From the NCBI GenBank assembly GCA_017615275.1, contig JAGAAO010000046.1:1-64000 (forward strand): a DNA stretch of 64,000 nt, written 5' to 3'. The stretch is from Butyrivibrio sp. GTDB taxonomy: Bacteria > Bacillota > Clostridia > Lachnospirales > Lachnospiraceae. Under the pieces are notes generated by a model. It saw only the letters and a program-made list of their open reading frames with translations. It did no database searches and was not told where the DNA came from. This document shows positions 42,286 through 58,754 of this stretch, piece by piece (the stretch's first letter is position 1; each line of letters begins with the position of its first letter). The position numbers and the translations under genes were made by a program.

Positions 42286-42398
42286 CTGTCGCACAATTAA
42301 ATGGTATGAAAATAGCGTTAATTGCATAGACATGAAACACCACTTGATATATGGTTATAAAGCAATAATAAAATGATAGTTTAACGAAGGTGTTTCTT

Positions 42399-43811: not shown

Positions 43812-43824
43812 TAGAAATATCAAG

Positions 43825-43862
43825 AGGAAACATCAGGCTTTGCTTGGTGTTTCTTCTTTTTA
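43825..43862 (+). terminator. Intrinsic terminator
   Basis: GAAACATCA / TGGTGTTTC (one G-T pair) with a loop containing GC...GC and a T-rich tail. Confidence 0.75.
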
Positions 43863-43884
43863 TTCTCGCGGGGTTAAATACCAT

Positions 43885-43915
43885 TCGCGCGCGAAAGAGT
43901 CGCAAGCGATTCTTT
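43885..43915. repeat. Second copy of the dispersed GC-rich hairpin
   Basis: TCGCGCGCGAAAGAGTCGC (43885-43903) matches 15214-15232 base for base and is followed by AAGCGATTCTTT, a hairpin with the same arms but one changed base. The upstream CTCGCGG and AATACC are also shared in weaker form. Confidence 0.7.
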
Positions 43916-44030
43916 GTATTATAACTGCGACTTATAACCACCTATAACCTATATCTTTTTTACATGGAACTTCTATGGCGATAGACTTATCTCATAAAGA
44001 GAAAAAACTTTTGACCTTATGGAGGGTAAC

Positions 44031-44654: not shown

Positions 44655-44681
44655 ATAATAATGCGTTTTGTGCACCAAACA

Positions 44682-44716
44682 CCTATTGACATACTATGTT
44701 GATGCATAGTATTATT
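44682..44716 (+). promoter_or_regulatory. cysK promoter with 8-base dyad between -35 and -10
   Basis: TTGACA (44687-44692), 18-base spacer, TATTAT (44711-44716). The spacer holds ATACTATG (44692-44699) and CATAGTAT (44706-44713), a perfect inverted repeat with a six-base centre, so a repressor there would block the polymerase. ACCTATTGAC (44682-44691) recurs at 54965-54974 before the second metY leader with the same -10 spacing. The Rrf2 protein at 54461 is the candidate. Confidence 0.6.
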
Positions 44717-44845
44717 TTGATAATTTTAGATTGCTAAAGCGCAAAAGTAACAAGGGTTTTAGCGGCGATTTACATAAATGTGTATTTTATAAAAAGTGTA
44801 AATGATCATATATATGACAATATAGAAACGGAGGAAATACAAAAA

Positions 44846-45778
44846 ATGGCGAATATTTATAAAGGCGCGTTGGGGCTTGTTGGAAATACCCCACTTGTAG
44901 AAGTTGTAAATATAGAAAAGGAGCTTTCACTTAAGGCGACGGTACTTGTTAAGCTTGAATATTTTAATCCCGCGGGAAGCGTAAAGGACAGAATTGCAAA
45001 AGCTATGATCGAAGACGCTGAGGCAAAGGGACTGTTAAAGGAAGGTTCGGTTATCATAGAGCCTACATCAGGTAACACAGGTATAGGTCTTGCTGCAATC
45101 GCTGCAGTAAAGGGATATCGTACTATTCTTACAATGCCCGAGACAATGAGTGTCGAGAGAAGAAGCATTCTTAAATCATACGGTGCAGAGATTGTTCTTA
45201 CAGAAGGACCTAAGGGAATGAAGGGGGCTATCGAGAAAGCGGAGGAATTTGCAAAAGAAATTCCTAATTCATATATTCCCGGGCAGTTTGTAAATCCTTC
45301 CAATCCGGCAGCGCACAAGGCAACAACAGGTCCTGAGATCTGGAAAGATACAGACGGGAAGGTTGATATATTCATAGCAGGTGTAGGCACAGGCGGAACT
45401 GTTACAGGAACCGGAGAGTATCTCAAAGAGCAGAATCCCAATATTAAAGTTGTAGCCCTTGAGCCTGCAGATTCACCTGTTTTGTCGGAAGGTAAAGCAG
45501 GAGCACACAAGATTCAGGGAATCGGTGCGGGATTTGTACCGGATGTTCTGAACACGGAAGTATACGATGAAGTTTTCAAGGCATCTAATGATGATGCTTT
45601 CGAAACTGCAAGACTTCTTGCAAGAAAAGAAGGAATATCAGTGGGAATCTCTTCGGGAGCGTCATTGTATGCAGCAATTGAATATGCCAAGAAACCCGAG
45701 AATGAAGGAAAAGTTATCGTAGCACTTCTTCCCGACAGTGGAGACAGATATTATTCCACAGCGCTCTTTACAAAATAA
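44846..45778 (+). CDS. cysK: Cysteine synthase (O-acetylserine sulfhydrylase)
   Basis: A 310-residue PLP enzyme that makes cysteine from O-acetylserine and sulfide. PAGSVKDRI carries the PLP Lys, TSGNTGIGLA the substrate loop, and GVGTGGTVTG the phosphate-binding loop; all are standard CysK. The ATG at 44846 has GGAGG nine bases upstream; the upstream in-frame GTG (44780) has none. It opens the sulfur island. Serine acetyltransferase, which supplies its substrate, is encoded at 51712. Confidence 0.96.
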   Translation: MANIYKGALGLVGNTPLVEVVNIEKELSLKATVLVKLEYFNPAGSVKDRIAKAMIEDAEAKGLLKEGSVIIEPTSGNTGIGLAAIAAVKGYRTILTMPETMSVERRSILKSYGAEIVLTEGPKGMKGAIEKAEEFAKEIPNSYIPGQFVNPSNPAAHKATTGPEIWKDTDGKVDIFIAGVGTGGTVTGTGEYLKEQNPNIKVVALEPADSPVLSEGKAGAHKIQGIGAGFVPDVLNTEVYDEVFKASNDDAFETARLLARKEGISVGISSGASLYAAIEYAKKPENEGKVIVALLPDSGDRYYSTALFTK

Positions 45779-45806
45779 AAAACTATTTTCCTAAGGAGAC
45801 GACTCT

Positions 45807-47054
45807 ATGGAGTTTAACACTAAGTTGTTACATGGAAGATCTATATCAAAGAATCCCGGGAAAGAGATATTACCGCCTGTTTCGCAGGTGACGGCCTTTC
45901 AATACGAGAGTATGGAGGAGCTTGAGAAAGTTTTTGCTCATAAGAGCATGGGATATGCATATTCCAGGATTGGAAATCCTACGCTTACAGCTTTTGAACA
46001 GAGAGTAAACGAACTCGAAGGAGGAGTTGGGGCAGTCAGTTGCAGCAGCGGAATGTCGGCGATCACAATTGCACTTCTTGCAGTCTGTAGCAGCGGTGAT
46101 GAAATAATCGTTGGAAGCGGATTGTACGGAGGGACGATTTCTCTTTTCCACGATCTGGAAAAGTTTGGTATACACACCATATTCGTTGATAAGCTGACCG
46201 CAGATTCGGTAAAAGAGCATCTCACAGACAAGACGAAGGTTGTTTTCGGTGAACTTATTTCCAACCCTTCGCTGAGAGTGCTTGATGTAGCTGAAGTTTC
46301 AAAAGTGGCACATGAGGCAGGTATTCCGCTTTTTGTGGATTCCACAACAGCGACACCGTATTTGGCAAGACCGCTTTCGCTGGGAGCAGATGTGGTGATC
46401 CATTCCACTTCCAAATACATAAACGGCGGAGGAAATTCCATCGGAGGAATCATTGTTGACGGAGGACGTTTTAGCTGGGATTTCGATAAGCATACAGCGC
46501 TTTCGGATTTTAGAAAATTTGGAAAAAGAGCTTTTCTTTTGAGACTTCGCACAGATATATGGGAGAATTTCGGCGGATGCATGGCTCCTGCCAATGCATA
46601 CCTCAGTTATATAGGGCTGGATACACTTGGGCTTAGGATGGAAAAAATATGCAGAAATACCGATGCGCTTGCAAAAGCCCTTGAAGGTATCTCAGGAATA
46701 GAGGTCTGTTATCTGACTCTGGACAGCCATCCCGATCACGGCTACGTAGAATCGGAACTTTCCGGATACGGAGGAGGAATACTTAATTTCAGAGCCGGTT
46801 CAAAAGAAAGAGCGTTTAAAATTATCAATTCTTTAAAGTATGCACTTATAGCAAGCAATATAGGTGATCTTAGAACTTTAGTAATACATCCTGCGTCAAC
46901 TCTTTACATTCATACAGGTAAAGAGGAAATGGAAGCCGCCGGTGTTTATGAGGACACTATAAGAGTAAGCGTCGGAATTGAGGACGCAGAGGACCTGATA
47001 GCAGATTTTAGGCAGGCTATCGAGAATGCAGATTTAAAAGATGAAAATGAATGA
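45807..47054 (+). CDS. Trans-sulfuration family PLP enzyme (MetY/O-acetylhomoserine sulfhydrylase-like)
   Basis: A 415-residue Cys/Met-metabolism enzyme. YSRIGNPTLTAFEQRVNELE is the PLP-phosphate region, FVDSTTATPYLARPL and HSTSKYINGGG hold the PLP aspartate and the Schiff-base Lys. It is nearer to O-acetylhomoserine sulfhydrylases than to cystathionine lyases because of the IGGIIVDGGRFSWDF segment, but lyase activity cannot be ruled out. It overlaps the JAMM gene by 14 bases, so its partner may be a carrier-bound sulfur donor. Confidence 0.85.
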   Translation: MEFNTKLLHGRSISKNPGKEILPPVSQVTAFQYESMEELEKVFAHKSMGYAYSRIGNPTLTAFEQRVNELEGGVGAVSCSSGMSAITIALLAVCSSGDEIIVGSGLYGGTISLFHDLEKFGIHTIFVDKLTADSVKEHLTDKTKVVFGELISNPSLRVLDVAEVSKVAHEAGIPLFVDSTTATPYLARPLSLGADVVIHSTSKYINGGGNSIGGIIVDGGRFSWDFDKHTALSDFRKFGKRAFLLRLRTDIWENFGGCMAPANAYLSYIGLDTLGLRMEKICRNTDALAKALEGISGIEVCYLTLDSHPDHGYVESELSGYGGGILNFRAGSKERAFKIINSLKYALIASNIGDLRTLVIHPASTLYIHTGKEEMEAAGVYEDTIRVSVGIEDAEDLIADFRQAIENADLKDENE

Positions 47055-47481
47055 AGAATTTATTCTTTTTAATGAGGCATACAGAGAAATAAAGCATCGC
47101 GCTTTAATGCAATATCCCAATGAAGCATGCGGACTGTTATTGAGTAGATGGAGCGATCATGCTATTGAGATTGCTTCAGTCGCAGACAACAAGGCAGATG
47201 GGGAAGAGAAAGCCGGTTATTTCAAAATCGACCCGATTCAGCTGTATGAGATGGAGCGGGAGATTGAGGAAAAAGGATATGAAGTTATTGGCTTTTTTCA
47301 TTCTCACCCTGACAAGCAGGCGGTTCTGTCTTATGCAGACAACAAAAATATGATTCCGGGAATGGTGTATATCATAGTTTCGGTTACAGAAGATACCGTA
47401 CACGATCTAAGAGGATACATGAAAGATACACCTGAAGGGGATGTTTACGAGATACGGATTGAGGAGGAATCCATATTATGA
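47041..47481 (+). CDS. JAMM/MPN+ metalloprotease (Mec/HcyD-like)
   Basis: A 146-residue zinc protease. The full motif is present: Glu28 in NEACGLL, then HSHP (His87, His89), Ser97 and Asp100 spaced exactly HxHx7Sx2D. Single-domain bacterial JAMM proteins of this kind cleave after the C-terminal glycine of ubiquitin-like sulfur carriers, either to mature them or to release the new amino acid (Mec in mycobacteria, HcyD in Wolinella). Here it overlaps both metY-like and the ubiquitin-like fusion gene, whose internal AGG site is the likely target. Confidence 0.9.
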   Translation: MKMNEEFILFNEAYREIKHRALMQYPNEACGLLLSRWSDHAIEIASVADNKADGEEKAGYFKIDPIQLYEMEREIEEKGYEVIGFFHSHPDKQAVLSYADNKNMIPGMVYIIVSVTEDTVHDLRGYMKDTPEGDVYEIRIEEESIL

Positions 47482-48935
47482 ATGTTTATATTTCGGCTAC
47501 GCTCCGAAACTTTTTTGGAAGAAATGCCAAGGTTTCGGTAACGGCAAGTACAGTCAGAGGCGTGCTTGATTTTTTGATAGATGAATATCCCGAATCAAAA
47601 AAGATAATTTTTGATGAGAGCGGAGAAATAAGAGATTTTATCAAAATATATATTGGTGATGAGGACAACACATCGAGTGATAAATGGGATCGTGCAATAC
47701 CACAAGATACAGAAGTATTGCTTCTTCCTGCTATAGCGGGAGGAGCACCGAATGACAGCATTATCTCAGATGAGAGAAGAAAAGAAGTTTCTTTTGATGA
47801 TTCGGAAGTAGAACGTTTTGGTAAGCATCTTTTGCTCAGAGAGATCGGTGTGAAGGGGCAGAAGAGAATAAAGGCCGCAAAGGTGGTCATCGCAGGTGCA
47901 GGTGCACTGGGATCTGCGGTTATACAGTATCTTGCGGCAGCAGGAGTGGGAACGATAAAGGTTGTAGATTTTGATGAGGTCTTTTTGGAGAATCTTCAAA
48001 ATCAGGTAATACACACGACAAGAGATCTTAAGAGGCCCAAGGTTGCATCCGCAAGAGATACGGTAAGAAACATTAATAGAAGTATTATTTTTGAAGCTGA
48101 GAATGCAAGGCTCGACAGCGAAAATATTATTGATATCATCTCGGGCTACGATCTTGTAATTGATTGCACAGACAACTACAAAGCCAGATATCTTATAAAC
48201 GATGCCTGTGCATTTTGTGCCATTCCGCTTGTGTTTGGAGCAATTTATCAGTATGAGGGACAGGTGGGAATATTTAACCTTAACGGCGGACCGTGCTACA
48301 GATGTGCGTTTCCCGCACCTCCTCCGGCAGGTCTTGTACCTACATGTTCAGAGGGTGGCGCAATTAGCCCTCTTCCCGGAATTATAGGAAGTATTCAGGC
48401 TAACGAAGCACTTAAGTTGATAATAGGCATAGGAGAGCATCTTGACGGAAAGCTCCTTGTAGTGGACAGCCTTTATCTTCATACAAGAATAATCAATATA
48501 GAAAAAGACAGTAAATGTCCTTTATGCGGAGAACATCCGACTATTACGGGAGTGCAGGAATTTGATTACGATGATTTCTGCGGACTTAAAGAAAATCAGG
48601 AAGAAGCGGCAATTGAGGGCTTCACTCCGGAAGAGCTTGCAAAGCGCATAGAGGATCAGGATTCAATAACTATAGTGGATGTGCGTGAACCTCATGAAAG
48701 AGCAATACTCAGGTTCCCAAATGCGATAGTCATACCTATAGGTCAGCTTGTGCGTAGAATGAACGAGCTTAACCCGGATCAGGATACGATATTTATCTGT
48801 AAGCAGGGACAGAGAAGTATACTTGCGATCAATACATTAAGAGAAGCCGGATATACAGGACCACTCTATAACTTAAAGGGTGGACTTGATGCTATGAAGG
48901 ATATTGTCTTCTCACATGAAGGTGCATGGTTGTAA
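47478..48935 (+). CDS. Fusion of ubiquitin-like sulfur carrier, E1-like enzyme and rhodanese
   Basis: A 485-residue three-domain protein. Residues 1-89 are a MoaD/CysO-like beta-grasp domain ending in LLLPAIAGG (Gly88-Gly89). Residues about 108-370 are a ThiF/MoeB adenylating domain with the nucleotide loop GAGALGS, zinc cysteines in CYRC and CPLC, and the catalytic-region PTCSEGG. Residues about 385-485 are a rhodanese with active-site Cys in FICKQGQRS. Carrier, activator and sulfur donor are normally separate proteins. For thiocarboxylate to form, the chain must be cut after Gly89, presumably by the overlapping JAMM gene. Confidence 0.9.
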   Translation: MNVYISATLRNFFGRNAKVSVTASTVRGVLDFLIDEYPESKKIIFDESGEIRDFIKIYIGDEDNTSSDKWDRAIPQDTEVLLLPAIAGGAPNDSIISDERRKEVSFDDSEVERFGKHLLLREIGVKGQKRIKAAKVVIAGAGALGSAVIQYLAAAGVGTIKVVDFDEVFLENLQNQVIHTTRDLKRPKVASARDTVRNINRSIIFEAENARLDSENIIDIISGYDLVIDCTDNYKARYLINDACAFCAIPLVFGAIYQYEGQVGIFNLNGGPCYRCAFPAPPPAGLVPTCSEGGAISPLPGIIGSIQANEALKLIIGIGEHLDGKLLVVDSLYLHTRIINIEKDSKCPLCGEHPTITGVQEFDYDDFCGLKENQEEAAIEGFTPEELAKRIEDQDSITIVDVREPHERAILRFPNAIVIPIGQLVRRMNELNPDQDTIFICKQGQRSILAINTLREAGYTGPLYNLKGGLDAMKDIVFSHEGAWL

Positions 48936-49010
48936 TAGAAACATTATTACATCGCAATTAGGCCACACCGGCTTAATAATATACAAATACATAATAAATG
49001 GAGGAATGAT

Positions 49011-49970
49011 ATGGCAAACGAGAAAGTACAGGCAAAAGAAGGAATTAACGCTTTAAGTGCAAAAGCTGCTTATAATCTGGCCAATGTCACAAAGACAAAA
49101 CCCCAGTATGGAGCATTGACTCCCAAGTGGCTTACCAAATTCCTTGAGTTCAAGGGACTTGAAACAGGTATCTTTAGAGTAAACAAGGTTGTTGAAGGCG
49201 AGACACCGCTTGATGTTTTGTGCAGTCAGACAAAGAAGTCAGACATTATCCCCGATGGTTATGTAGAGTATCAGACAGAGCCACGTGAATATGTTCTGAA
49301 TTCAATTTCTACTATCATCAACGTTAACACTGCAGTTGAAGATGTTTACAGCGCTCCTTACGATCAGGTTCAGGAGCAGCTCAGTCTTGCTATCGATTCT
49401 TTGAGAGAGAGACAGGAGAGTCAGCTTATCAATAATGATGACTACGGTCTTCTCAAGAACGTTGCAGATTCACAGAGAATTCAGACCAGAAACGGTGCAC
49501 CTACTCCTGATGATTTTGATGAGCTTATCACAAAGGTATGGAAAGAACCTTCATTCTTCCTTGCTCATCCACGTGCGATCGCTGCATTTGAAAGAGAATG
49601 TACAAAGAGAGGTGTTCCGCCTGTAACTGTAAATATCGCAGGAGGCACATTCCTTTCATGGAGAGGAATTCCTATCATTCCTACAGATAAACTTCTTGTA
49701 GACGGACTCAAGAATCCTAAGTCACAGAGCGGAAAGACCAATATTCTTCTTGTTCGTACAGGAGAAGCTAAGAGAGGCGTAATCGGTCTGTTCCAAGCCG
49801 GTCTTAAGAATGAACATTCAAGAGGACTTTCTGTTCGTTTCAGAGGAATTGATGATAAGGGAGTTGCATCTTATCTTTTATCTTTATACTGCTCTGCAGC
49901 AATTCTTGCAGATGATGCTATTGCAGTATTGGAAGATGTAGAGGTAGGTGAGTACTATGACTACGATTGA
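49011..49970 (+). CDS. Family 2A encapsulin shell protein
   Basis: A 319-residue HK97-fold shell protein of the encapsulin Family 2A group, the sulfur-metabolism type typified by SrpI. It begins with the N-terminal arm typical of Family 2 (residues 1-60, NLANVTKTKPQYGALTPKWL), then the conserved RERQESQLINNDDYGLL, APTPDDFDELITKVWKEP and FFLAHPRAIAAFERECTKRG blocks, and ends with LSLYCSAAILADDAIAVLEDVEVG. No Family 2B cNMP-binding insertion is present. The next gene, whose start overlaps, encodes a cysteine desulfurase cargo, and serine acetyltransferase follows, which is the known Family 2A neighbourhood. Confidence 0.95.
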   Translation: MANEKVQAKEGINALSAKAAYNLANVTKTKPQYGALTPKWLTKFLEFKGLETGIFRVNKVVEGETPLDVLCSQTKKSDIIPDGYVEYQTEPREYVLNSISTIINVNTAVEDVYSAPYDQVQEQLSLAIDSLRERQESQLINNDDYGLLKNVADSQRIQTRNGAPTPDDFDELITKVWKEPSFFLAHPRAIAAFERECTKRGVPPVTVNIAGGTFLSWRGIPIIPTDKLLVDGLKNPKSQSGKTNILLVRTGEAKRGVIGLFQAGLKNEHSRGLSVRFRGIDDKGVASYLLSLYCSAAILADDAIAVLEDVEVGEYYDYD

Positions 49971-51642
49971 GAGCTTGGCAGGAGTACCAAGCGCGGCTGA
50001 ACTGAATGCTTTGGCTAACGAGCTCTTTCCGGATTTTACGGAAAGTGTATCTGCGGTGCCTGAACAGGGCGCTTCAGTTCCGGAGGTGAATGCTTCCGAA
50101 GAGACATTTGGATATGCAAACATTCCAAGTGCATCAGTCGGAGGTTTTGATTGGGAGCACCCCTTTGGATACGGCGGAGAATCTACCGATGAGTGGCTTA
50201 GAACTGTTGAGGGTGTGTCTGCACCCGAGGCGGAATTTTTGCCCGGTGAGGGAGATGTTTCTGCGGTAACGGATACCGGAAGCGTATCATATTCTCCTGT
50301 TGTAGTGTCACAAGCGCAGGCGAAGGAAGGTGACAGAAAGATTGATGCGCCCACTTCACTTGACGGAGACGGCGTTACCAAAAAAGAAGGAAATGATGCA
50401 CCATATTCATCTCGCGATGAGTCAATACGTATCGGTTCAAAAACGCTTGCACAGATCAGAAGTGATTTTCCGATCCTTTCGGAAAAGATTAATGGAAATA
50501 ATCTTGTGTGGCTTGATAACGGAGCTACTACGCAGAGACCAAAGGCAGTAATAGATCGCCTTACTTATTACTATGAACATGAAAATTCAAATGTTCACAG
50601 AGGTGCGCACACTCTTGCGGCAAGATCTACAGATGCCTACGAAGGTGCAAGAGATATTGTCAGAGATTTCATAGGAGCTTCTTCGTCTGAAGAGATAGTT
50701 TTTGTAAGAGGTACGACGGAAGCAATAAACCTGGTTGCCAATGCTTACGTAAAGCCTATACTTGAGCCCGGAGATGAGATAATTGTTTCTATTCTTGAAC
50801 ATCACGCAAACATTGTTCCTTGGCAGCTGATAGCACAGCAGACAGGAGCGGTGATAAAGGTTATTCCCTGTGATGAATCGGGACAGTTAAAGCTTCATGA
50901 GTATGAAAAGCTGTTTACTACAAAGACTAAATTTGTATCTGTGACACATGTATCAAATGTTCTCGGCACGGTTACACCTGTTGCGGAGCTCATTGCCATT
51001 GCTCACAGACATGGAGTTCGCATACTTATAGACGGTGCGCAGTCCGTAGCGCATATACCCGTAAACGTTACTGCGCTTGATGCAGATTTCTTTGTTTTTT
51101 CCGGACACAAGATATTTGCTCCTACGGGTATCGGTGTTGTATACGGAAAAAAAGAGCTTCTTGAAGCAGCGCAGCCATATCACGGCGGTGGAAATATGAT
51201 CGCTGATGTTACATTTGAGCGCACGATATATAATCCCATTCCCAATAAGTTTGAAGCAGGTACGGGAAGTATTGCTGATGCTGTGGGACTTGGAGCAGCG
51301 CTTAATTATCTTTCTGAGATCGGAATGCCCTGCATATACAGATGGGAGCATGAACTTCTTCAGTATGCAATGAAAGAAATGAAGAATATTAAGGGACTGC
51401 ATCTTATCGGAACAGCACTTAACAAGGCTTCCGTGCTTTCATTTAAACTTGACGGTTATTCGGACGAAGAGGTCGGAAATCGCCTCAATTCATACGGTAT
51501 AGCTGTTCGTACAGGTCATCATTGTGCACAGCCTGTCCTTAGACACTTTGGATACGAGGGATCCGTAAGACCGACACTTGCACTATACAATTCACCTGAC
51601 GATATTGATGCTTTGGTAAAAGTACTTAAGACATTTGCATAA
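49957..51642 (+). CDS. Encapsulated cysteine desulfurase with long N-terminal cargo-loading region
   Basis: A 561-residue protein. Residues 1-165 are low in hydrophobicity, rich in Ser, Glu, Ala, Val and Gly, and predicted disordered; a short amphipathic stretch (SAAELNALANELFPDF, 12-27) and GGFDWEHPFGYGG (62-74) stand out. Residues 166-561 are a SufS-type desulfurase: PLP Lys385 in SGHKIFAPTG and catalytic Cys523 in RTGHHCAQP. It removes sulfur from cysteine as a persulfide. In Family 2A systems the disordered N-terminus loads the enzyme into the shell. The gene overlaps the shell gene by 14 bases. Confidence 0.93.
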   Translation: MTTIESLAGVPSAAELNALANELFPDFTESVSAVPEQGASVPEVNASEETFGYANIPSASVGGFDWEHPFGYGGESTDEWLRTVEGVSAPEAEFLPGEGDVSAVTDTGSVSYSPVVVSQAQAKEGDRKIDAPTSLDGDGVTKKEGNDAPYSSRDESIRIGSKTLAQIRSDFPILSEKINGNNLVWLDNGATTQRPKAVIDRLTYYYEHENSNVHRGAHTLAARSTDAYEGARDIVRDFIGASSSEEIVFVRGTTEAINLVANAYVKPILEPGDEIIVSILEHHANIVPWQLIAQQTGAVIKVIPCDESGQLKLHEYEKLFTTKTKFVSVTHVSNVLGTVTPVAELIAIAHRHGVRILIDGAQSVAHIPVNVTALDADFFVFSGHKIFAPTGIGVVYGKKELLEAAQPYHGGGNMIADVTFERTIYNPIPNKFEAGTGSIADAVGLGAALNYLSEIGMPCIYRWEHELLQYAMKEMKNIKGLHLIGTALNKASVLSFKLDGYSDEEVGNRLNSYGIAVRTGHHCAQPVLRHFGYEGSVRPTLALYNSPDDIDALVKVLKTFA

Positions 51643-51648
51643 GTTAAT

Positions 51649-51679
51649 TCCTGCCGGATGAGAGCCTCTTCCGGCAGGA
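51649..51679 (+). other. Very stable intercistronic hairpin
   Basis: TCCTGCCGGA and TCCGGCAGGA frame GAG/CTC, giving about 13 paired bases with one mismatch and a 3-base loop. No T run follows, so it is more likely an mRNA-processing or stability element or partial terminator between the desulfurase and acetyltransferase genes. Confidence 0.7.
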
Positions 51680-51711
51680 GAAATGCAAATATTGGGGAGG
51701 CTGGGAAATTC

Positions 51712-52671
51712 GTGAGCGGAATAATCAATGAAGATGAGATCAATAAGATCGTTCTAAATGTTTTTAAAGACTTTGAAGGTGGCAAGACTATAGATGCCAT
51801 TGATATCTACAATAAACCTGACAAGGCGGAAGTCAGGGAACTTGTCGATGATTTTTTTAGAATAATTTTCCCGGGATATTTCAGGGATCGTTCATACAAG
51901 ATTTTTAATCCAAAGAACAGTTTTGCCGTTACTTTGGAGGACATTTTTTATCATCTCAACAAGCAGGTAACTCTTGCTCTTGATTTCTGTAATAAGAGGG
52001 GAACTCTTACCGAAAAACAGCGCCGGGAAGAGAGCTACAGAGTATGCAAGATTTTTTTCGAGCGCATTCCTGCTGTCAGAGAATATGTAGAATCAGATTT
52101 GATCGCTGCTTATGACGGGGATCCCGCAGCCGGTTGTATGGAAGAGATAATTCTTGCTTATCCGGGACTTATGGCGATTACCGTTTACAGAATAGCGCAT
52201 GAGCTTTACAAGTTGCAGATTCCTGTGCTTCCGAGACTTATGACCGAGTATGCTCATTCTGAGACGGGGATAGATATTCACCCCGGAGCACAGATAGGAA
52301 AATACTTTTTTATCGATCACGGAACGGGCATTGTCATCGGGGAGACCGCTGTTATCGGTGAGCACGTGAAAATATATCAGGGTGTCACAATAGGAGCGTT
52401 ATCTACAAAAGGCGGACAGAAACTATCCGGAGTTAAGAGACATCCCACAATCTGTGATAATGTTACTATCTACGCCGGAGCGTCAATTTTGGGCGGAGAT
52501 ACAATAATAGGCGAAAATACTGTTATCGGCGGTAATACATTCATAACAAGATCGATAGGTGCAGACACAAGAGTAAGCATGAAGAATCTTGAAATGGAAT
52601 ATCGCACAAATAACAATGAAAGAAAAATAGAAGAGTTGAAACAGGGTGATCAGTGGTATTACGTGATCTGA
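51712..52671 (+). CDS. cysE: Serine O-acetyltransferase
   Basis: A 319-residue acetyltransferase that makes O-acetylserine for CysK. The N-terminal helical domain is followed by the left-handed beta helix with hexapeptide repeats: HPGAQIGKYFFIDHGTG, VIGETAVIGEHVKIYQGVTIGA and NVTIYAGASILGGDTIIGENT. It is of the longer (EpsC/SrpH-like) type often found next to Family 2A encapsulins. The GTG at 51712 follows GGGGAGG; the in-frame ATG at 51658 sits inside the hairpin. Confidence 0.92.
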   Translation: MSGIINEDEINKIVLNVFKDFEGGKTIDAIDIYNKPDKAEVRELVDDFFRIIFPGYFRDRSYKIFNPKNSFAVTLEDIFYHLNKQVTLALDFCNKRGTLTEKQRREESYRVCKIFFERIPAVREYVESDLIAAYDGDPAAGCMEEIILAYPGLMAITVYRIAHELYKLQIPVLPRLMTEYAHSETGIDIHPGAQIGKYFFIDHGTGIVIGETAVIGEHVKIYQGVTIGALSTKGGQKLSGVKRHPTICDNVTIYAGASILGGDTIIGENTVIGGNTFITRSIGADTRVSMKNLEMEYRTNNNERKIEELKQGDQWYYVI

Positions 52672-52703
52672 TCACACAAAAGTAAAATTATAAGGAGACC
52701 AAT

Positions 52704-52910
52704 ATGAAGATTACAGTTGCAGGAGAAAAAAAAGAATTTGCTGACGGAATTACAGTTTCTGAGCTCATTGAACTTGAGCAGGTAGAGACACCGCAGTATG
52801 TCACAGTTTCCGTAAATGAGGAATTTATAAATGCCGAGGATTTTGAAACACATAAACTCAGTGAGGGCGATGAGGTTGAATTCCTGTACTTTATGGGAGG
52901 AGGAAGATAA
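52704..52910 (+). CDS. ThiS/HcyS-like sulfur-carrier protein with an extra C-terminal Arg
   Basis: A 68-residue beta-grasp protein: MKITVAGEKKEF, TVSELIELE and a C-terminal GDEVEFLYFMGGGR. Sulfur carriers of this type are activated at a terminal Gly-Gly, but here Arg68 follows Gly65-67, so one residue must be removed before adenylation, as the Ala is removed from HcyS of Wolinella. The stop overlaps the E1 start. The next JAMM gene is the likely trimming enzyme. It is shorter than the fused carrier domain. Confidence 0.9.
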   Translation: MKITVAGEKKEFADGITVSELIELEQVETPQYVTVSVNEEFINAEDFETHKLSEGDEVEFLYFMGGGR

Positions 52911-53719
52911 TGGCATTTACCAATGAACAGCTTGAAAGATATTCAAGGCATATTATTTTAAAAGAGATTGGTGTAAAGGGGCAAAAGAAGCTTCTGAATG
53001 CGAAGGTGCTCATTATCGGAGCAGGCGGACTCGGAGCCCCGGCAGCTCTTTATCTTGCTGCAGCCGGAGTTGGAACAATCGGCATTGTCGACGCAGACGT
53101 AGTCGATCTTTCCAATCTTCAGAGACAGGTTATCCATACAACAAATGATATAGGGAAAAAGAAGGTCGAATCAGCAGCCGAGACCATGCGCCAAATTAAT
53201 CCCGATGTCACTGTAAACACATATTATCAATTTGTAAGCAGCGATAATATTCTTGATCTGATAAAAGATTATGATTTTGTTATTGACGGAACAGACAATT
53301 TCGCAGCTAAGTTCCTTATCAATGATGCCTGCGTAATGGCAAAGAAACCACTTTCACATGCGGGAATCATCAGATTCAAGGGACAGCTTACGACGATCAT
53401 TCCGGGAGAAGGTCCTTGCTACAGATGTATATTCAAGGATCCGCCGCCAAAGGATGCGGTACCTACCTGCAAGCAGGCAGGAGTTATAGGTGCTATGGGA
53501 GGTGTTATCGGCTCACTTCAGGCTATGGAAGCAGTTAAGTACATTACGGGAGTAGGAGATCTTCTTGTGGGATATCTTCTTACTTATGATGCGCTTAAAA
53601 TGGAATTCCATAAGATCAAGCTTCCGCCCAGAGGAAAGGGCTGTGCGGTATGTTCGGATGAACCTACTATCACAGAGCTTATAGATTACGAGCAGCCTGC
53701 ATGTGATTTAAAGCATTGA
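52910..53719 (+). CDS. ThiF/MoeB/HcyF-type E1-like adenylating enzyme
   Basis: A 269-residue single-domain E1-like enzyme that adenylates the C-terminal Gly of the carrier. GAGGLGAPAALYLAAAGVG is the ATP loop, RQVIH the Arg finger, CYRC and CAVC the zinc cysteines, and PTCKQAG the active-site Cys region. There is no rhodanese domain, unlike the fusion protein at 47478. It shares a one-base overlap with the carrier gene, and a JAMM gene follows. Confidence 0.92.
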   Translation: MAFTNEQLERYSRHIILKEIGVKGQKKLLNAKVLIIGAGGLGAPAALYLAAAGVGTIGIVDADVVDLSNLQRQVIHTTNDIGKKKVESAAETMRQINPDVTVNTYYQFVSSDNILDLIKDYDFVIDGTDNFAAKFLINDACVMAKKPLSHAGIIRFKGQLTTIIPGEGPCYRCIFKDPPPKDAVPTCKQAGVIGAMGGVIGSLQAMEAVKYITGVGDLLVGYLLTYDALKMEFHKIKLPPRGKGCAVCSDEPTITELIDYEQPACDLKH

Positions 53720-53735
53720 TAACGGAGAATGTATT

Positions 53736-54173
53736 ATGAAGATAACAATTACAAGATCTGATCTTGACAGGATTGTTGAGCATGCTCTTTTGGAAAGACC
53801 GGATGAGGCATGCGGACTTATAGCCGGAACAGACAATGAGGACGGAATCAGAGAGATAAAGAAAGTGTATCTTTTGACTAATATAGATCACACTAATGAG
53901 CATTTTTCCATAGATCCGAAAGAACAGCTTAAGGCTATTAAGGATATGCGTGCAAACGGGCTTAAGCCAATCGGAAACTGGCATTCTCATCCTGAGACAC
54001 CTTCACGTCCTTCAGAAGAGGATAAAAGACTTGCAAATGACAGTAAAGCAAGTTATCTTATCCTTTCTCTCATGGAGGAAGGAAATCCTGTCTTAAATGC
54101 TTTTCATGTGGAAAGCGTTAACGGTGAGAAGGAAGTCCGAAAGGAAGAACTCATCATTAAGGAGGATAAATAA
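53736..54173 (+). CDS. JAMM/MPN+ metalloprotease (second copy)
   Basis: A 145-residue zinc protease: Glu24 in DEACGLI, HSHP with His83 and His85, Ser93 and Asp96, exactly HxHx7Sx2D. It is only moderately like the first copy at 47041, so the two probably serve different carriers. The placement between E1 and TusA-like genes fits the HcyD role: trimming the carrier's extra Arg and later hydrolysing the carrier-amino acid conjugate. Confidence 0.9.
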   Translation: MKITITRSDLDRIVEHALLERPDEACGLIAGTDNEDGIREIKKVYLLTNIDHTNEHFSIDPKEQLKAIKDMRANGLKPIGNWHSHPETPSRPSEEDKRLANDSKASYLILSLMEEGNPVLNAFHVESVNGEKEVRKEELIIKEDK

Positions 54174-54425
54174 ATGGCAGATATAGAATTTAATGTTGAT
54201 GATACGGTTGATATTACAGATGTACAGTGCCCTGTTACTTTTGTTAAGACAAAGGTGGCACTTGAAGAGCTTGATGACGGCCAGATTCTTCAGGTTCATA
54301 TAAATGACGGTGAGCCTATACAGAATGTACCAAGAAGTGTCAAAGAAGAAGGACACGAGGTGCTTAAGATACAGGATAATGGCGATGGTACCTTTGAACT
54401 GTTTATAAAGAAAGTCGGAGATTGA
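54174..54425 (+). CDS. TusA/SirA-like sulfurtransferase
   Basis: An 83-residue TusA-family protein. The family start is seen in ITDVQCPVTFVKTKVALEELDDGQILQV, with Cys19 in the CPxx motif that holds the persulfide; the usual second Pro is replaced (CPVT). TusA accepts sulfur from a cysteine desulfurase and hands it on, so here it could link the encapsulated desulfurase with the carrier. It follows the JAMM stop with no gap and a GGAGG inside the previous gene. Confidence 0.9.
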   Translation: MADIEFNVDDTVDITDVQCPVTFVKTKVALEELDDGQILQVHINDGEPIQNVPRSVKEEGHEVLKIQDNGDGTFELFIKKVGD

Positions 54426-54444
54426 TATTTCGACTTAAGAAAAT

Positions 54445-54486
54445 AGCGACCTGCTCATGATCAGAGCAGATCGCTTAATTTTTTTG
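54445..54486 (+). terminator. Terminator at the end of the encapsulin/carrier operon
   Basis: AGCGACCTGCTC / GAGCAGATCGCT (one mismatch) with a 7-base loop and a T run. The right arm overlaps the last codons of the convergent Rrf2 gene. Confidence 0.8.
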
Positions 54487-54856
54487 CATAAAAGAAATTT
54501 CTCTCAAGTTCGTAGAATTCATTCCACATCGATAGTGTCTTGCATTTATCCGAACGGTCACATTTTGCGGCGTTGTCTTCAAGGCACACCACGGGAGCAA
54601 ATGAACCTTCCATATGTTCTATTATTTCTCCGACAGAGTACTCGGAAGGTTCTCGAATAAGCTTATAACCGCCGTGTTTGCCGCTTGCGCTTGATATAAG
54701 CCCGCTTGATACAAGCTCTTTTGCGATTATCTCCAGGTATTTTTTGGAAATATCTTGTCTTTCGGCTATATCTTTCAGCGGGATGAGACCTGAATCTTTG
54801 TTGGAGGCAAGATCTATCATGAGCCTTAATGCATATCGCCCTTTGGTCGTAAACAT
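54461..54856 (-). CDS. Rrf2-family transcriptional regulator (CymR/IscR-like)
   Basis: A 131-residue winged-helix regulator: MFTTKGRYALRLMIDLA start, ERQDISKKYLEIIAKEL recognition helix and SGKHGGYKL wing. Three cysteines, Cys91, 99 and 105 (CX7CX5C), occupy the region that binds an iron-sulfur cluster in IscR-type members, so it may sense cluster or sulfide status; CymR, the cysteine regulator, works with CysK. It is divergent from the leader-metY unit and sits in the middle of the sulfur island. The ribosome site is AAGGAGGG. Confidence 0.88.
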   Translation of the reverse strand: MFTTKGRYALRLMIDLASNKDSGLIPLKDIAERQDISKKYLEIIAKELVSSGLISSASGKHGGYKLIREPSEYSVGEIIEHMEGSFAPVVCLEDNAAKCDRSDKCKTLSMWNEFYELERNFFYAKKLSDLL

Positions 54857-54964
54857 GTAAGTCCCTCCTTATTCTTTTCTCTTTTATTAAAGATAACGTA
54901 TTACCCGGCTTTTTTTGAATTAGGCTTAGGTTATCACCGGGGATAAGTTTTAGTTATCGTAAAA

Positions 54965-54999
54965 CCTATTGACGAACTAGGTGAATATGTTTTATCATC
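54965..54999 (+). promoter_or_regulatory. Promoter of the leader-metY unit, sharing a motif with cysK
   Basis: ACCTATTGAC (54965-54974) is identical to the stretch over the cysK -35. TTGACG (54970-54975), 18-base spacer, TATCAT (54994-54999). The spacer repeats part of the cysK pattern (ACTA). The remainder of 54857-54964 shows GATAAC/GTTATC half-sites but nothing I can assign. Confidence 0.5.
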
Positions 55000-55032
55000 T
55001 TTTCAAGATAAATGCAAGGGAGAAAAAAAGAT

Positions 55033-55116
55033 ATGAATAATTTTTCTACAGTTTCTTTTAACCGAATGCGATGTTGCCGAATGTGTTTTGACCGAATGTG
55101 CTGTTGTCGAATGTGA
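55033..55116 (+). CDS. Cysteine/methionine-rich leader peptide built from 15-base repeats
   Basis: A 27-codon ORF with AAGGAG ending 10 bases before the ATG. The peptide holds six Cys (14, 15, 18, 23, 24, 25) and five Met (1, 12, 17, 22, 27) in a repeated five-residue RMxCx pattern, encoded by four tandem 15-base units (start at 55062, 55077, 55092, 55107; core CCGAATGYG). The stop is 86 bases before metY. High Cys/Met content in front of a homocysteine synthesis gene suggests ribosome stalling when these amino acids are short, as in polycysteine leaders of mycobacteria. No clear terminator/antiterminator is seen downstream. Confidence 0.65.
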   Translation: MNNFSTVSFNRMRCCRMCFDRMCCCRM

Positions 55117-55202
55117 CAGGCATCGGAGTAATAAGAAAAAAGCAACTTATATATAAATAAATAGAAATCATAAATCTTAAATAGTATAGGAGAGAAATAA
55201 TC

Positions 55203-56486
55203 ATGAGTAATTATAAATTTGAAACACTTCAGTTACACGTTGGACAGGAACAGCCCGATCCCGCTACAGATGCAAGAGCGGTTCCGATTTACCAGACTAC
55301 ATCATATGTATTTAGAAATTCACAGCATGCAGCAGACAGATTCGGACTTGCTGATGCAGGAAACATATACGGAAGACTTACAAATTCAACACAGGATGTG
55401 TTCGAGAAGAGAATCGCCGCACTTGAAGGCGGAAGCGCAGCACTTGCGGTTGCATCAGGAGCAGCAGCGATCACATATACAATACAGGCGCTTGCAGCAA
55501 ACGGCGGACACATAGTAGCACAGAAGACAATCTACGGCGGAAGCTACAATCTTCTTGCACACACACTTCCTCAGTATGGAATAACAACTACATTTGTAGA
55601 TGCACATAATCTTGCTGAGATCGAGGGCGCGATCAAAGAGAACACAAGAGCTATCTATCTTGAGACTTTGGGAAATCCCAACAGTGATATCCCGGATATC
55701 GATGCTGTTGCTGAGATAGCTCACAAGCACGGACTTCCTCTTGTGATCGACAATACTTTCGGAACACCTTATCTCATCAGACCTATCGAGCACGGTGCAG
55801 ATATCGTAGTTCATTCAGCTACAAAGTTTATCGGCGGACACGGAACAACACTTGGCGGAATCATCGTTGAGTCAGGTAAGTTCAACTGGAAAGAGAGCGG
55901 CAACTATCCTCAGATAGCAGCGCCCAATCCAAGTTACCACGGTGTATCTTTCTATGATGCCGTTGGCCCCGCTGCTTTCGTTACATACATAAGAGCAATT
56001 CTTTTAAGAGATACAGGAGCTACTATTTCACCTTTCAACGCATTCCTGCTTCTTCAGGGTGTTGAGACACTTTCACTTCGTCTCGACAGACATGCAGAGA
56101 ATACCAAGAAAGTAGTTGAGTTCCTTTCAAAGCACCCTCAGGTTGAGAAGGTTAATCACCCTTCAATCGCAGATCATCCCGATCACGCTTTGTATGAGAA
56201 GTATTTCCCGAACGGTGGAGCTTCTATCTTTACATTCGAGATCAAGGGCGGCAAAGAGGCAGCTTGGAAGTTCATCGACAATCTCGAGATCTTTTCACTT
56301 CTTGCTAACGTAGCAGATGTAAAGAGCCTTGTTATCCATCCTGCAAGCACAACACACTCACAGCTTACAGATGAGGAACTTGAAGATCAGGGAATCACAC
56401 AGAGCACTATCAGATTGTCAATCGGAACAGAGCACGTTGACGATATCATTGCAGATCTTGAGAAAGGTTTTGCGGCAGCAAAATAA
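55203..56486 (+). CDS. metY: O-acetylhomoserine sulfhydrylase
   Basis: A 427-residue PLP enzyme that adds sulfide, or carrier-bound sulfur, to O-acetylhomoserine to give homocysteine. It matches MetY from start to end: ETLQLHVGQEQPDPATDARA, YGRLTNSTQDVFEKRIAALE, the PLP Lys in HSATKFIGGHG, and GNYPQIAAPNPSYHGVSF, a long insertion typical of MetY. GGAGAG precedes the ATG. Codon use is rather biased to frequent codons, suggesting high expression. It is downstream of the Cys/Met leader and next to the carrier genes. Confidence 0.95.
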   Translation: MSNYKFETLQLHVGQEQPDPATDARAVPIYQTTSYVFRNSQHAADRFGLADAGNIYGRLTNSTQDVFEKRIAALEGGSAALAVASGAAAITYTIQALAANGGHIVAQKTIYGGSYNLLAHTLPQYGITTTFVDAHNLAEIEGAIKENTRAIYLETLGNPNSDIPDIDAVAEIAHKHGLPLVIDNTFGTPYLIRPIEHGADIVVHSATKFIGGHGTTLGGIIVESGKFNWKESGNYPQIAAPNPSYHGVSFYDAVGPAAFVTYIRAILLRDTGATISPFNAFLLLQGVETLSLRLDRHAENTKKVVEFLSKHPQVEKVNHPSIADHPDHALYEKYFPNGGASIFTFEIKGGKEAAWKFIDNLEIFSLLANVADVKSLVIHPASTTHSQLTDEELEDQGITQSTIRLSIGTEHVDDIIADLEKGFAAAK

Positions 56487-56509
56487 GAAGAAATAGGGAG
56501 TAAATTATT

Positions 56510-57436
56510 ATGAAAAAGAATCTTTTAAACAAATTGGGAACAATTATTACATCGGCAGCACTTCTCGGAGCATCACTTACAGGATGCGGAAGTGCCGGTG
56601 CTGAGAATACAGCAGCAAGTGAAGACGTAACCATAGCTGACGCAGAGGTTGCAAAGGCAGAGTCTGCGGAAGAAACTGCTACAGTTTACAGAACTCTCGA
56701 CGAGATCAAGGAGAGCGGAACGATCAATATCGGTGTGTTCTCCGACAAGAGCCCCTTCGGATACGTTGATGAGAACGGCGAGTATGCAGGATATGATGTT
56801 TATTTTGCAGAGAAGATCGGGGAGGATCTCGGAGTAAAGATCAACTATGTTTCAACAGAAGCTGCCAACAGAATTGAGTATCTCCAGACAGGAAAGGTGG
56901 ATATCATTCTTGCCAATTTCACCGTAACTGAAGAGAGAGCTCAGGAAGTTGATTTTGCACTTCCTTACATGAACGTTGCACTCGGTGTTGTTTCACCCGA
57001 AGACAAAGTAATCGAGAGCCTTGATAATGTCGGAGCAGACGACAAGATCATCGTTATTTCGGGAACAACAGCAGAGACTTATCTTGAGAAGAACTATCCA
57101 AACATCAAGCTTCAGAAGTACGATGCGTACGCAGAGGCAAAGACAGCGTTTGAGAACGGAAACGGTGTTGCTTGGGCAAATGATAATACAGAGGTAATCG
57201 CTTTCGCACTTGAGAACGAGGGCTACAAAGTAGGAATTCCTTCACTCGGAAGTGCAGACACGATCGCACCTGCTGTAACAAAGGGCAACGAAACACTTCT
57301 TACATGGCTCAATGAAGAGATTGAGACAATCGGAAAAGATAACTTCTTCCACAAGGACTATGAAGAGACACTTCTTGAGACATACGGAAAAGATTATGAA
57401 GACACACTCGTAGTTGAGAGTGGTAAGGTTCAGTGA
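56510..57436 (+). CDS. Amino-acid (probably cystine) ABC transporter substrate-binding lipoprotein
   Basis: A 308-residue lipoprotein: signal with lipobox SLTGC, an Ala/Glu-rich linker, then a SBP_bac_3 fold (SGTINIGVFSDKSPFGYVDENG, GYDVYFAEKIGEDLG, LQTGKVDIILANFTVTEERA). Cystine is inferred from its position between metY and the permeases in the sulfur island; the binding site itself does not prove it. Confidence 0.88.
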   Translation: MKKNLLNKLGTIITSAALLGASLTGCGSAGAENTAASEDVTIADAEVAKAESAEETATVYRTLDEIKESGTINIGVFSDKSPFGYVDENGEYAGYDVYFAEKIGEDLGVKINYVSTEAANRIEYLQTGKVDIILANFTVTEERAQEVDFALPYMNVALGVVSPEDKVIESLDNVGADDKIIVISGTTAETYLEKNYPNIKLQKYDAYAEAKTAFENGNGVAWANDNTEVIAFALENEGYKVGIPSLGSADTIAPAVTKGNETLLTWLNEEIETIGKDNFFHKDYEETLLETYGKDYEDTLVVESGKVQ

Positions 57437-57437
57437 T

Positions 57438-58097
57438 ATGGATATAAATGTGCTAATAACGTATATACCTCTGTATAATGAAGCACTTCTCCTTACATTT
57501 AAGATTGGTATGCTTGGCATCCTGACAGCCTTCGCCATAGGGCTGTCAGGGGCAGCAGCCGTTTATTTCAAAGTTCCTGTAGTTAAAAAAATATTGGAAA
57601 TATACATTGAGCTGTTCAGGAATACACCATTACTTGTGCAGCTTTTTTTCATTTATTTTGCACTTCCGAAACTTGGAATAAGAATTGACGCAGAGACCTG
57701 CGGAGTGCTGGGACTTGGACTTATAGGCGGAGCGTACATGATTGAGACGCTTAGGAGCGGTTTTGAATCTATCGACAAAGTGCAGAGTGAAAGCGCTCTT
57801 TCACTTGGAATGACAAGGAGGCAGATGTTTGGAAGTATCATACTTCCGCAGGCTTTTTCCGTAAGTATGCCCGGAATCATGGCGAACGTCATCTTCCTGT
57901 TAAAAGAAACTTCGGTGTTCTCTACGATAAGTCTTATGGATCTGATGTTTACAGCCAAAGATCTGATAGGTATGTATGCAAAGACTATAGAGTGCCTTTT
58001 CCTTTTGGTTGTCTATTACCTCATCATGCTCCTTCCTATATCTGTTCTTGGATCATTCATAGAAAGGAGAGTACGCTATGCACAATTTGGGGATTGA
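57438..58097 (+). CDS. Amino-acid ABC transporter permease
   Basis: A 219-residue polar amino-acid permease of the HisM family with about five helices. FRNTPLLVQLFFIYFALPKLG and the EAA-type loop ALSLGMTRRQMFGSIILPQAF are the family features. The ATG follows the SBP stop by one base. Overlaps the next permease gene by 20 bases. Confidence 0.9.
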   Translation: MDINVLITYIPLYNEALLLTFKIGMLGILTAFAIGLSGAAAVYFKVPVVKKILEIYIELFRNTPLLVQLFFIYFALPKLGIRIDAETCGVLGLGLIGGAYMIETLRSGFESIDKVQSESALSLGMTRRQMFGSIILPQAFSVSMPGIMANVIFLLKETSVFSTISLMDLMFTAKDLIGMYAKTIECLFLLVVYYLIMLLPISVLGSFIERRVRYAQFGD

Positions 58098-58752
58098 TGT
58101 TCTTTTCAAAGGAACCAATATGATAAGACTTCTCAAAGGGTTATGGGTATCTGTAGAGATAAGTCTCATCGCGGTTTTGATAAGCATCGTGCTTGGACTT
58201 GTGATGGGCATACTCATGACATCCAAGAGTAAAGTAATAAGATTTATCTTAAGAGTGTATCTTGAGGTAGTCAGGATCATGCCTCAGATGGTCCTGTTGT
58301 TTATAGTCTATTTCGGTACAACAAGAGTTTTCGGTCTTAATATTTCTGCGGAAGCTTCGGCGATAATTGTATTTGTTTTCTGGGGAACTGCTGAAATGGG
58401 CGATCTTGTGAGGGGATCAATAAAAAGCATACCGAAGATACAGTATGATTCGGCGTATGCGCTTGGAATGGACAAAATTCAGGTGTACACGGCGATCATA
58501 CTTCCGCAGACAATAAGGCGACTGATACCGCTTTCCATCAATCTTGTCACCAGAATGATAAAGACGACATCGCTTGTGATGATGATAGGAATAGTTGAAG
58601 TGTTAAAGGTTGCCCAGCAGATAATAGAAGCCAACAGAAAAGCTTCGCCCAACGCGGCATTCGGAGTGTTCGCGGTGGTATTTCTTTTGTATTTTGTAGT
58701 ATGCCGGACAATTAGCGGATTTGCGGTAAAGCTTGAGAAAAGGTGGACATAG
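58078..58752 (+). CDS. Amino-acid ABC transporter permease
   Basis: A 224-residue second permease of the same family. LEVVRIMPQMVLLFIVYFG and the coupling loop AYALGMDKIQVYTAIILPQTI are visible. With the partner at 57438 it would form a heterodimeric channel, as in many cystine importers. AAAGGAGAG lies before the ATG. Confidence 0.9.
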   Translation: MHNLGIDVLFKGTNMIRLLKGLWVSVEISLIAVLISIVLGLVMGILMTSKSKVIRFILRVYLEVVRIMPQMVLLFIVYFGTTRVFGLNISAEASAIIVFVFWGTAEMGDLVRGSIKSIPKIQYDSAYALGMDKIQVYTAIILPQTIRRLIPLSINLVTRMIKTTSLVMMIGIVEVLKVAQQIIEANRKASPNAAFGVFAVVFLLYFVVCRTISGFAVKLEKRWT

Positions 58753-58754
58753 AT

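Follow-up and report, generated by a model that had tools for sequence, protein, structure and literature searches.

A family 2A encapsulin locus of gut and rumen bacteria conserved beside two putative sulfur-carrier modules

Family 2A encapsulins, such as SrpI of Synechococcus elongatus and those of the Acinetobacter and Burkholderia types, pair a shell protein with a cargo cysteine desulfurase that has a motif-bearing N-terminal extension, and several have an acetyltransferase, rhodanese or CysK gene nearby. Benisch reportedly described sulfur in encapsulin shells in 2024. Acetyltransferases and rhodaneses are named as the most enriched accessories by Andreas and Giessen 2021 (PMC8346489), and a 2025 paper cites in its introduction that encapsulated desulfurases store sulfur (PMC12407261). 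Here we analyse a locus with a shell, cargo and accessories of these same kinds in a 64,000-nucleotide stretch of Butyrivibrio sp. DNA (contig JAGAAO010000046.1; hereafter the window), from a genome of 3.18 Mb in 99 contigs that is 84.8% complete. In this locus, and in those of other gut and rumen bacteria, shell genes concerned with taking sulfur from cysteine adjoin two sets of sulfur-carrier genes, modules 1 and 2, that probably return sulfur to cysteine and homocysteine.

The homocysteine pathway of HcyS, HcyF, HcyD and MetY is known from Wolinella. It corresponds to gene neighbourhood type 4e of Iyer et al. 2006 (PMC1779556), and the complete type 4e gene set is present in the window: a ThiS-like carrier, a JAMM peptidase, an E1 without rhodanese, SirA/TusA and an O-acetylhomoserine sulfhydrylase (a MetY-like protein that scores under its family cut-off). 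The CysO/Mec/CysM/MoeZ pathway of Mycobacterium tuberculosis (PMC3227635) has in common with the window a carrier ending in LPA[IV]AGG, an E1-rhodanese and a JAMM protein. In MoaX and MoaD-MoaE fusions the cut falls at the C-terminal glycine of the carrier, which is required; these fusions share with our locus an internal Gly-Gly that needs exposure, and in Deinococcus the cutter is a JAMM protein (PMC4326299, PMC8832034). A fusion of a ubiquitin-like domain to ThiF, beside a sulfhydrylase and a cysteine synthase, was noted in Pelobacter propionicus in 2006 (PMC1779556).

Eleven genes of the window follow one another on the + strand between 44846 and 54425:

44846..45778, + strand: cysK, O-acetylserine sulfhydrylase A (TIGR01139, 451 bits; cut-off 351)
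45807..47054, + strand: metYa, MetY-like O-acetylhomoserine/O-acetylserine sulfhydrylase (TIGR01326, 396 bits, under the cut-off of 495)
47041..47481, + strand: JAMM1 metallopeptidase, Mec-like by context (PF14464, 59.5 bits, cut-off 25; HSHP and S..D motif)
47478..48935, + strand: carrier-E1-rhodanese fusion (ThiF 245 bits, cut-off 28; rhodanese 55 bits, cut-off 22; N-terminal beta-grasp by its match to 3dwg_C)
49011..49970, + strand: family 2A encapsulin shell protein, 319 amino acids (NF041162, 488.7 bits; cut-off 380)
49957..51642, + strand: cargo cysteine desulfurase, 561 amino acids (NF041166, 781 bits, slightly under the cut-off of 800; sufS, 541 bits, cut-off 475)
51658..52671, + strand: serine O-acetyltransferase with an N-terminal extension (TIGR01172, 164 bits, under the cut-off of 210.65)
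52704..52910, + strand: carrier 2 (carrier B), ThiS-like (TIGR01683, 66.5 bits, cut-off 37), ending FMGGGR, past Gly-Gly
52910..53719, + strand: E1-like adenylyltransferase without rhodanese (PF00899, 299 bits; cut-off 28)
53736..54173, + strand: JAMM2 metallopeptidase, HcyD-like by context (PF14464, 93 bits; cut-off 25)
54174..54425, + strand: TusA/SirA-like sulfur transferase (PF01206, 73.6 bits, cut-off 29; CPVTFV motif)

A first-pass annotation had named these genes together with an Rrf2 regulator, a leader peptide and a second metY, all contiguous and largely overlapping. Every gene that it named was found. The contiguity holds for the eleven from cysK to tusA, in a row on one strand; rrf2 lies on the opposite strand and the second metY (metYb) in a separate unit. 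The overlap was overstated, being found at 4 of the 10 junctions between cysK and tusA. The shell protein matches NF041162 over its full length and has no cNMP domain, which places it in family 2A; among solved chains, Major membrane protein I and SrpI are closest to it. The long N-terminus claimed for the neighbouring desulfurase is real: it contains LANELFPDF, and comparison by eye finds an LANxxF motif also in the N-terminal extensions of the cargo proteins of Acinetobacter, Azospirillum and Methylosinus. The enzyme also has a SufS-type RTGHHC loop. Its start codon is most likely ATG 49957, the position that relatives keep, and not GTG 49948.

The fusion consists of a CysO-like carrier (carrier A, residues 1-89, ending LPAIAGG), a linker, an E1 (116-348) with two CxxC pairs and a rhodanese (383-473) with active Cys441 in CKQGQRS. 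The best solved relative of carrier A is 3dwg_C (E 2e-6; both end LPA[IV]AGG), named in the database as a 9.5 kDa culture filtrate antigen, which we take to be M. tuberculosis CysO. Every carrier A frame listed contains [LIV]P.[IV]AGG, and the AGG is invariant in 34/34 aligned fusions. The Gly-Gly is internal in the window. In five loci (L111, L113, L114, L116 and L121) carrier A is a free gene that extends 1-5 residues past it; elsewhere the frame continues into E1. The CxxGxRS rhodanese loop is retained in 86/86 fusions, and a JAMM gene is present in 85 of the 86 loci with a fused carrier, window included (the exception, L036, has a contig that starts at the fusion). The JAMM1 motif is strict in 79 of 84 frames, and the remaining 5 retain HSH without the proline.

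Carrier B likewise runs 2-7 residues beyond its first Gly-Gly in 65/65 frames. From what is known of E1 chemistry, neither carrier should be open to adenylation at Gly-Gly until it is cut. The JAMM motif is kept in 59/59 JAMM2 frames and the Cys-Pro of TusA in 56/56. In L038, L041, L049 and L050, JAMM2 and TusA form a single open frame, and the two may therefore act together. metYa is a divergent family member, given its score under the TIGR01326 cut-off. It probably belongs with module 2 despite adjoining JAMM1 in the window, because in 14 loci of other gene order (13 distinct, as L029 and L105 are one contig) its neighbours are carrier 2, E1 or TusA, not JAMM1. By position, then, cysK, JAMM1 and the CysO-like carrier would make up a cysteine module (module 1), and the MetY-like protein, the ThiS-like carrier, E1, JAMM2 and TusA a homocysteine module (module 2).

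A search of genome contigs with the shell protein found at least 567 relatives, from which we kept the best 80 named loci (88-95% identical; three of the 80 are on the same contigs as other loci analysed here, namely L006/L104, L015/L103 and L029/L105). Most are from rumen and gut Lachnospiraceae, and named Pseudobutyrivibrio strains are among the carriers of the gene set. The fusion adjoins the shell gene in all 68 loci with at least 3.5 kb upstream and JAMM1 is present in 65 of these; the three without it (L022, L025 and L035) carry JAMM2 downstream. The desulfurase lies 3' of the shell gene in 75/75 loci with 2 kb downstream. Among 37 loci flanked on each side by 6.5 kb, in which genes were counted by best-scoring label, we found the fusion in 37, JAMM1 in 36, serine acetyltransferase in 34, the MetY-like gene in 29, cysK in 5 and a same-strand Rrf2 gene in 11. 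Module 2 is present in 29, as four separate genes in 26 and with JAMM2 and TusA in one frame in L038, L041 and L049. The first-pass annotation would have been refuted by a neighbourhood confined to this genome; instead it is conserved, also outside Lachnospiraceae, with two carrier systems that are distinct from each other and both conserved with the shell. Its recurrence in named loci of many genomes rules out chance or artefact.

The gene set is constant and the order variable. Module 2 usually follows the acetyltransferase or the desulfurase. It precedes JAMM1 in L002, L066, L076 and L079, sits downstream behind metYa in L029, lies upstream with cysK and rrf2 in L107-L109, and lies upstream with metYa and an acetyltransferase in L135, from another class of the phylum. 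Across five gene orders the fusion remains directly 5' of the shell gene. Outside Bacillota, shells with carrier genes occur in Treponema zioleckii kT3 (L078, 92% identical) and in a Fibrobacter succinogenes metagenome-assembled genome (L079, 88%; contamination possible), and such close shells with carrier genes in other phyla suggest horizontal transfer of the cluster. An Aliarcobacter cibarius plasmid has the order cysteine synthase, JAMM, free carrier, E1, rhodanese, shell, desulfurase, acetyltransferase and cysK, interrupted in places by insertion sequences.

Across 295 Lachnospirales genomes, among them that of the window, we asked how often shell and carriers occur together. Matches to the shell family are present in 19 (16 above cut-off). 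Carrier A is found in 13, all of them shell-positive, and 14/14 copies lie no more than 1.7 kb from the shell gene (Fisher test, 1.7e-18, kinship ignored). JAMM2, our marker of module 2 (threshold E 1e-20), occurs in 36 of the genomes, in 11 of the 13 with carrier A versus 25 of the 282 others (p 1.3e-9); G157 and G251, which have carrier A but no JAMM2, are both 86% complete. Close linkage alone does not explain this association, because in five of the 11 JAMM2 is unlinked: about 950 kb separate it from the shell gene in G218, and it is on a separate contig in G004, G009, G172 and G249. The shell is missing from each of the nine further genomes sampled in the window's genus; one of them, G166, has a close JAMM2.

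Beyond this order the association loosens. In a phylum sample of 398 genomes, the shell is present in 7 and carrier A-like genes, many of them weak matches, in 74. At 14 carrier places in 13 shell-less genomes we found five carrier-E1-rhodanese fusions with JAMM (L168, L169, L170, L176 and L177), all in Bacillota genomes without a family 2A match, and four of these five also have a cysteine synthase; L179 is a carrier-E1 fusion with JAMM and cysteine synthase. The idea that carrier A is exclusive to encapsulins therefore holds in the Lachnospirales sample, where the fusion and module 1 occur solely with the shell, and fails in the phylum sample, where they are wider than the shell link.

On the shell side, loci with carrier genes fall in one clade of 95 shells (SH-aLRT 100 in a quick, midpoint-rooted tree). 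Eight members of the clade were scored without carrier genes: L020, L032, L065 and L072 are at contig ends, and L112, L115, L118 and L134 have at least 8.8 kb upstream. Outside the clade we compared the flanking DNA of 16 family 2 loci (two Azospirillum, Methylosinus, Synechococcus, Acinetobacter, Variovorax, Burkholderia, Paraburkholderia, a family 2B Kitasatospora and seven distant Bacillota). They have shell and desulfurase with no carrier, E1, JAMM or TusA in that DNA, which in L119, L120 and L137 amounts to about 1 kb or less upstream; whole-genome search found no carrier A in the genomes of these three (G098, G139 and G665). Five of the 16 have a rhodanese gene.

The best explanation, to which we lend slightly more belief than doubt, is a cysteine-fed sulfur buffer with protein-bound outlets. 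Its sequence of events, the storage of sulfur and the transfer to rhodanese and TusA are inferred by analogy with the family 2A, CysO and HcyS systems. The shell-enclosed desulfurase would strip sulfur from imported or surplus cysteine, and this sulfane sulfur would be kept in or at the shell. JAMM1 would cut the fusion after Gly-Gly (residue 89), giving a CysO-like carrier and an E1-rhodanese; the E1 would adenylate the carrier tail, and the rhodanese would give it persulfide sulfur from the compartment to form a thiocarboxylate. With O-acetylserine supplied by the acetyltransferase, CysK would make carrier-cysteine, from which JAMM1 would free cysteine. In parallel, JAMM2 would trim the ThiS-like carrier, the second E1 would charge it with sulfur from TusA, and the MetY-like enzyme would make homocysteine. 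In this scheme the partner of each carrier and both products are those expected from gene content and position.

Several observations weigh against this explanation. The 80 loci are the closest relatives of the window's shell, and their agreement is hence partly kinship. Module 2 is not nearby in 8 of the 37 well-flanked loci, and cysK is near the shell gene in only 5 of them, so carrier A has no constant partner sulfhydrylase. The shell does not require carrier A, because 6 of the 19 shell-positive Lachnospirales genomes lack it (G014, G051, G098, G133, G139 and G141), as do 5 of the 7 shell-positive genomes of the phylum sample. Conversely, the carrier module can do without the shell, as only 2 of the 74 phylum genomes with carrier A-like genes, the window's and G629, are shell-positive. 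The fusion E1 shows the CxxC pattern of MoeBR, not that of MoeZR: two CxxC pairs define MoeBR, MoeZR lacks the second, and MoeZR alone served CysO (Voss 2011, PMC3227635). Both pairs are invariant in 34/34 aligned fusions, which speaks against simple orthology. The E1 is accordingly not classed as MoeZR; its proposed likeness in function to the CysO/Mec system still stands. Finally, making cysteine from cysteine would be futile unless the steps are separated in time, which the scheme assumes.

A stronger form of the same explanation is a sulfide-free circuit. The shell would be a sulfur bank with the two ubiquitin-like carriers as its sole outlets, so that cysteine sulfur reaches homocysteine without free sulfide or cystathionine; a dedicated exit port of the compartment would be the CysO-like carrier, synthesised within a carrier-E1-rhodanese proprotein that JAMM opens. 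We put this forward tentatively, and doubt it more than we believe it.

The strongest rival holds that the neighbours are independent. Shell and desulfurase would serve storage or iron-sulfur and redox functions, the carriers would use free sulfide or other desulfurases, and clustering would reflect shared cysteine regulation and joint transfer. The modules do occur without shells and shells without modules, the Rrf2 gene and Cys-rich leaders described below suggest common control, and the close shells in other phyla suggest transfer. However, carrier A never occurs without the shell in the 295 Lachnospirales genomes, the fusion stays directly 5' of the shell gene through the five gene orders, and JAMM2 is enriched in carrier A genomes even where it is unlinked. 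We consider such independence unlikely, if a serious contender.

Carrier, E1 and JAMM proteins also compose archaeal conjugation systems (SAMP1, HvJAMM1). On that model the E1 would attach carrier A to the shell or cargo as a ubiquitin-like tag and JAMM1 would remove it, gating assembly or turnover. NCBIfam matches to SAMP1, UbaA and desampylase, all under cut-off, point this way, but the acetyltransferase and sulfhydrylase genes that accompany the modules, the rhodanese loop kept in 86/86 fusions and the presumed CysO identity of the closest solved carrier all favour sulfur transfer. We regard it as very improbable.

The first-pass annotation would also have been refuted by carriers and E1 confined to thiamine or molybdopterin synthesis. 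In 24 core genomes, 13 of them reached through named loci without stated completeness and some of the others incomplete, MoaE was not found (0/24; the control matched in 11 of 14 known genomes). ThiG was matched in 17, 13 of them above Pfam's low cut-off. It is full-length (above 300 bits) in six (G000, G158, G218, G629, G692 and G696), and the remaining matches, partial and at about 33 bits or less, we take for other barrel proteins. Each full-length ThiG lies beside its own ThiS, with ThiF found in 4 of the 6. Because MoaE is absent from 24/24 and full-length ThiG from 18/24, cofactor synthesis is not the main role; a thiamine or molybdopterin operon is ruled out for most genomes examined, and the carriers are not confined to these pathways. 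A role of one carrier-E1 pair, or of both, in the thiamine synthesis of some genomes is hardly probable, given these absences and the window genome's own ThiS, ThiF and ThiG on a different contig, and despite a carrier 2 that scores above the ThiS cut-off, ThiG genes in G629 and G692 that have a ThiS beside them but no ThiF found by the models, and thi genes on one contig with module 2 in G629. The pairing of shell and carriers is real and conserved, and is not explained by cofactor pathways in most genomes examined.

The genes and signals around the eleven-gene row may bear on its regulation and on the supply of cysteine. Downstream of tusA lie a terminator-like hairpin and the convergent rrf2, followed by a second unit of leader, metYb and transporter:

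44686..44715, + strand: promoter-like site TTGACA-18-TATTAT before cysK (consensus scan, 11/12 matches)
54445..54475, - strand: terminator-like hairpin between tusA and rrf2 (12 pairs, T-rich tail on the - strand)
54461..54856, - strand: Rrf2-family regulator (Rrf2 model 111 bits, cut-off 30; TIGR00738 122 bits, above cut-off)
55012..55113 (or from 55033), + strand: Cys/Met-rich leader peptide open reading frame, MNNFSTVSFNRMRCCRMCFDRMCCCRM, with six Cys, 89 nucleotides 5' of metYb
55203..56486, + strand: metYb, canonical O-acetylhomoserine/O-acetylserine sulfhydrylase (TIGR01326, 635 bits; cut-off 495)
56510..59519, + strand: amino-acid ATP-binding cassette (ABC) transporter (binding protein, two permeases and ATPase), continuing the metYb unit

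Transcript borders are a guess, because promoter-like sites are no commoner in the region than expected by chance (24 versus 25.8); terminator-like hairpins number 14 versus 8.0 expected. The Rrf2 protein is a candidate CymR- or IscR-like regulator, and scored far under cut-off with the CymR and IscR models. Rfam gave no riboswitch match in the window at gathering thresholds.

Cys-rich leaders with the shared core MC[CW]CRM-x3-RA-xx-M-x-G recur in Lachnospiraceae loci (19 pattern matches versus 1, 4, 1, 0 and 3 in Markov controls). Of these, 11 sit 86-200 nucleotides 5' of a metY, cysK or JAMM1 gene, and some of the others look like chance matches. The window's own leader is Cys-rich and falls outside the pattern. 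Loci with related leaders include:

L014:2729-2851, L026:4030-4155, L034:2700-2819, L043:535-654 and L045:5718-5828
L062:3495-3614, L023:14680-14799 and L060:14589-14699

An NCBIfam search of seven leader peptides returned no match. An intrinsic attenuator between leader and metYb was rejected, as shuffled sequences fold equally well (z 0.91), so any leader control would be of another kind.

The ABC transporter probably takes up cysteine. The closest solved chains of its binding protein are 1xt8 and 2yjp, which we presume to be cysteine-binding proteins, and it shares 52% identity with an annotated cysteine-binding protein encoded near the encapsulin of Aliarcobacter; cystine transporter models scored it under cut-off. 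Further out, a short MetE-like homocysteine methyltransferase (39355-40473; PRK06520, 390 bits, cut-off 313) is encoded 4.4 kb 5' of cysK and could complete methionine from module 2 homocysteine. A CatA-like O-acetyltransferase at 60810-61499 scored about 100 bits, far under cut-offs of 300 and 270.

The conserved set, uniting shell, desulfurase, rhodanese-E1 and carriers, is amenable to a reconstitution test. It is also a natural example of a ubiquitin-like carrier that seems to be produced as a proprotein, joined to the enzyme that activates it.

The first-pass annotation knew of no description of the full combination, and we found no such pairing in the searchable open-access literature. 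No open-access paper on encapsulins with thiocarboxylate was found, and among the open-access matches listed there was none for encapsulin with JAMM, ThiF, sulfur carrier protein, MoeZ or CysO, or, since 2021, with rumen, Butyrivibrio or Lachnospiraceae. Within the main-text portions covered, PMC8346489 mentions neither ThiF nor Mov34 nor a sulfur carrier, and PMC8049743 neither ThiF nor JAMM; their supplementary neighbour tables may list some of these genes.

Each module alone is of a known kind, and carrier modules without an encapsulin are common elsewhere in the phylum. Compared with other family 2A loci, the rhodanese here forms the last part of a carrier-E1 fusion, and the locus additionally has JAMM, TusA, a second carrier and a second E1. 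Unlike CysO of M. tuberculosis, carrier A is fused to its E1, linked to an encapsulin and joined to an E1 with both CxxC pairs; the CysK-type enzyme and the acetyltransferase suggest that O-acetylserine is used rather than the O-phosphoserine of that species. Module 2 differs from the HcyS pathway in its linkage to a family 2A shell, and the genes annotated at 42390-59519 include none for sulfate or sulfite reduction. Whereas MoaX and MoaD-MoaE join a carrier to MoaE, the fusion beside the encapsulin joins one to E1 and rhodanese. What is new is that a family 2A shell is combined both with a CysO-like carrier that is fused to E1-rhodanese and with a carrier set of the homocysteine type.

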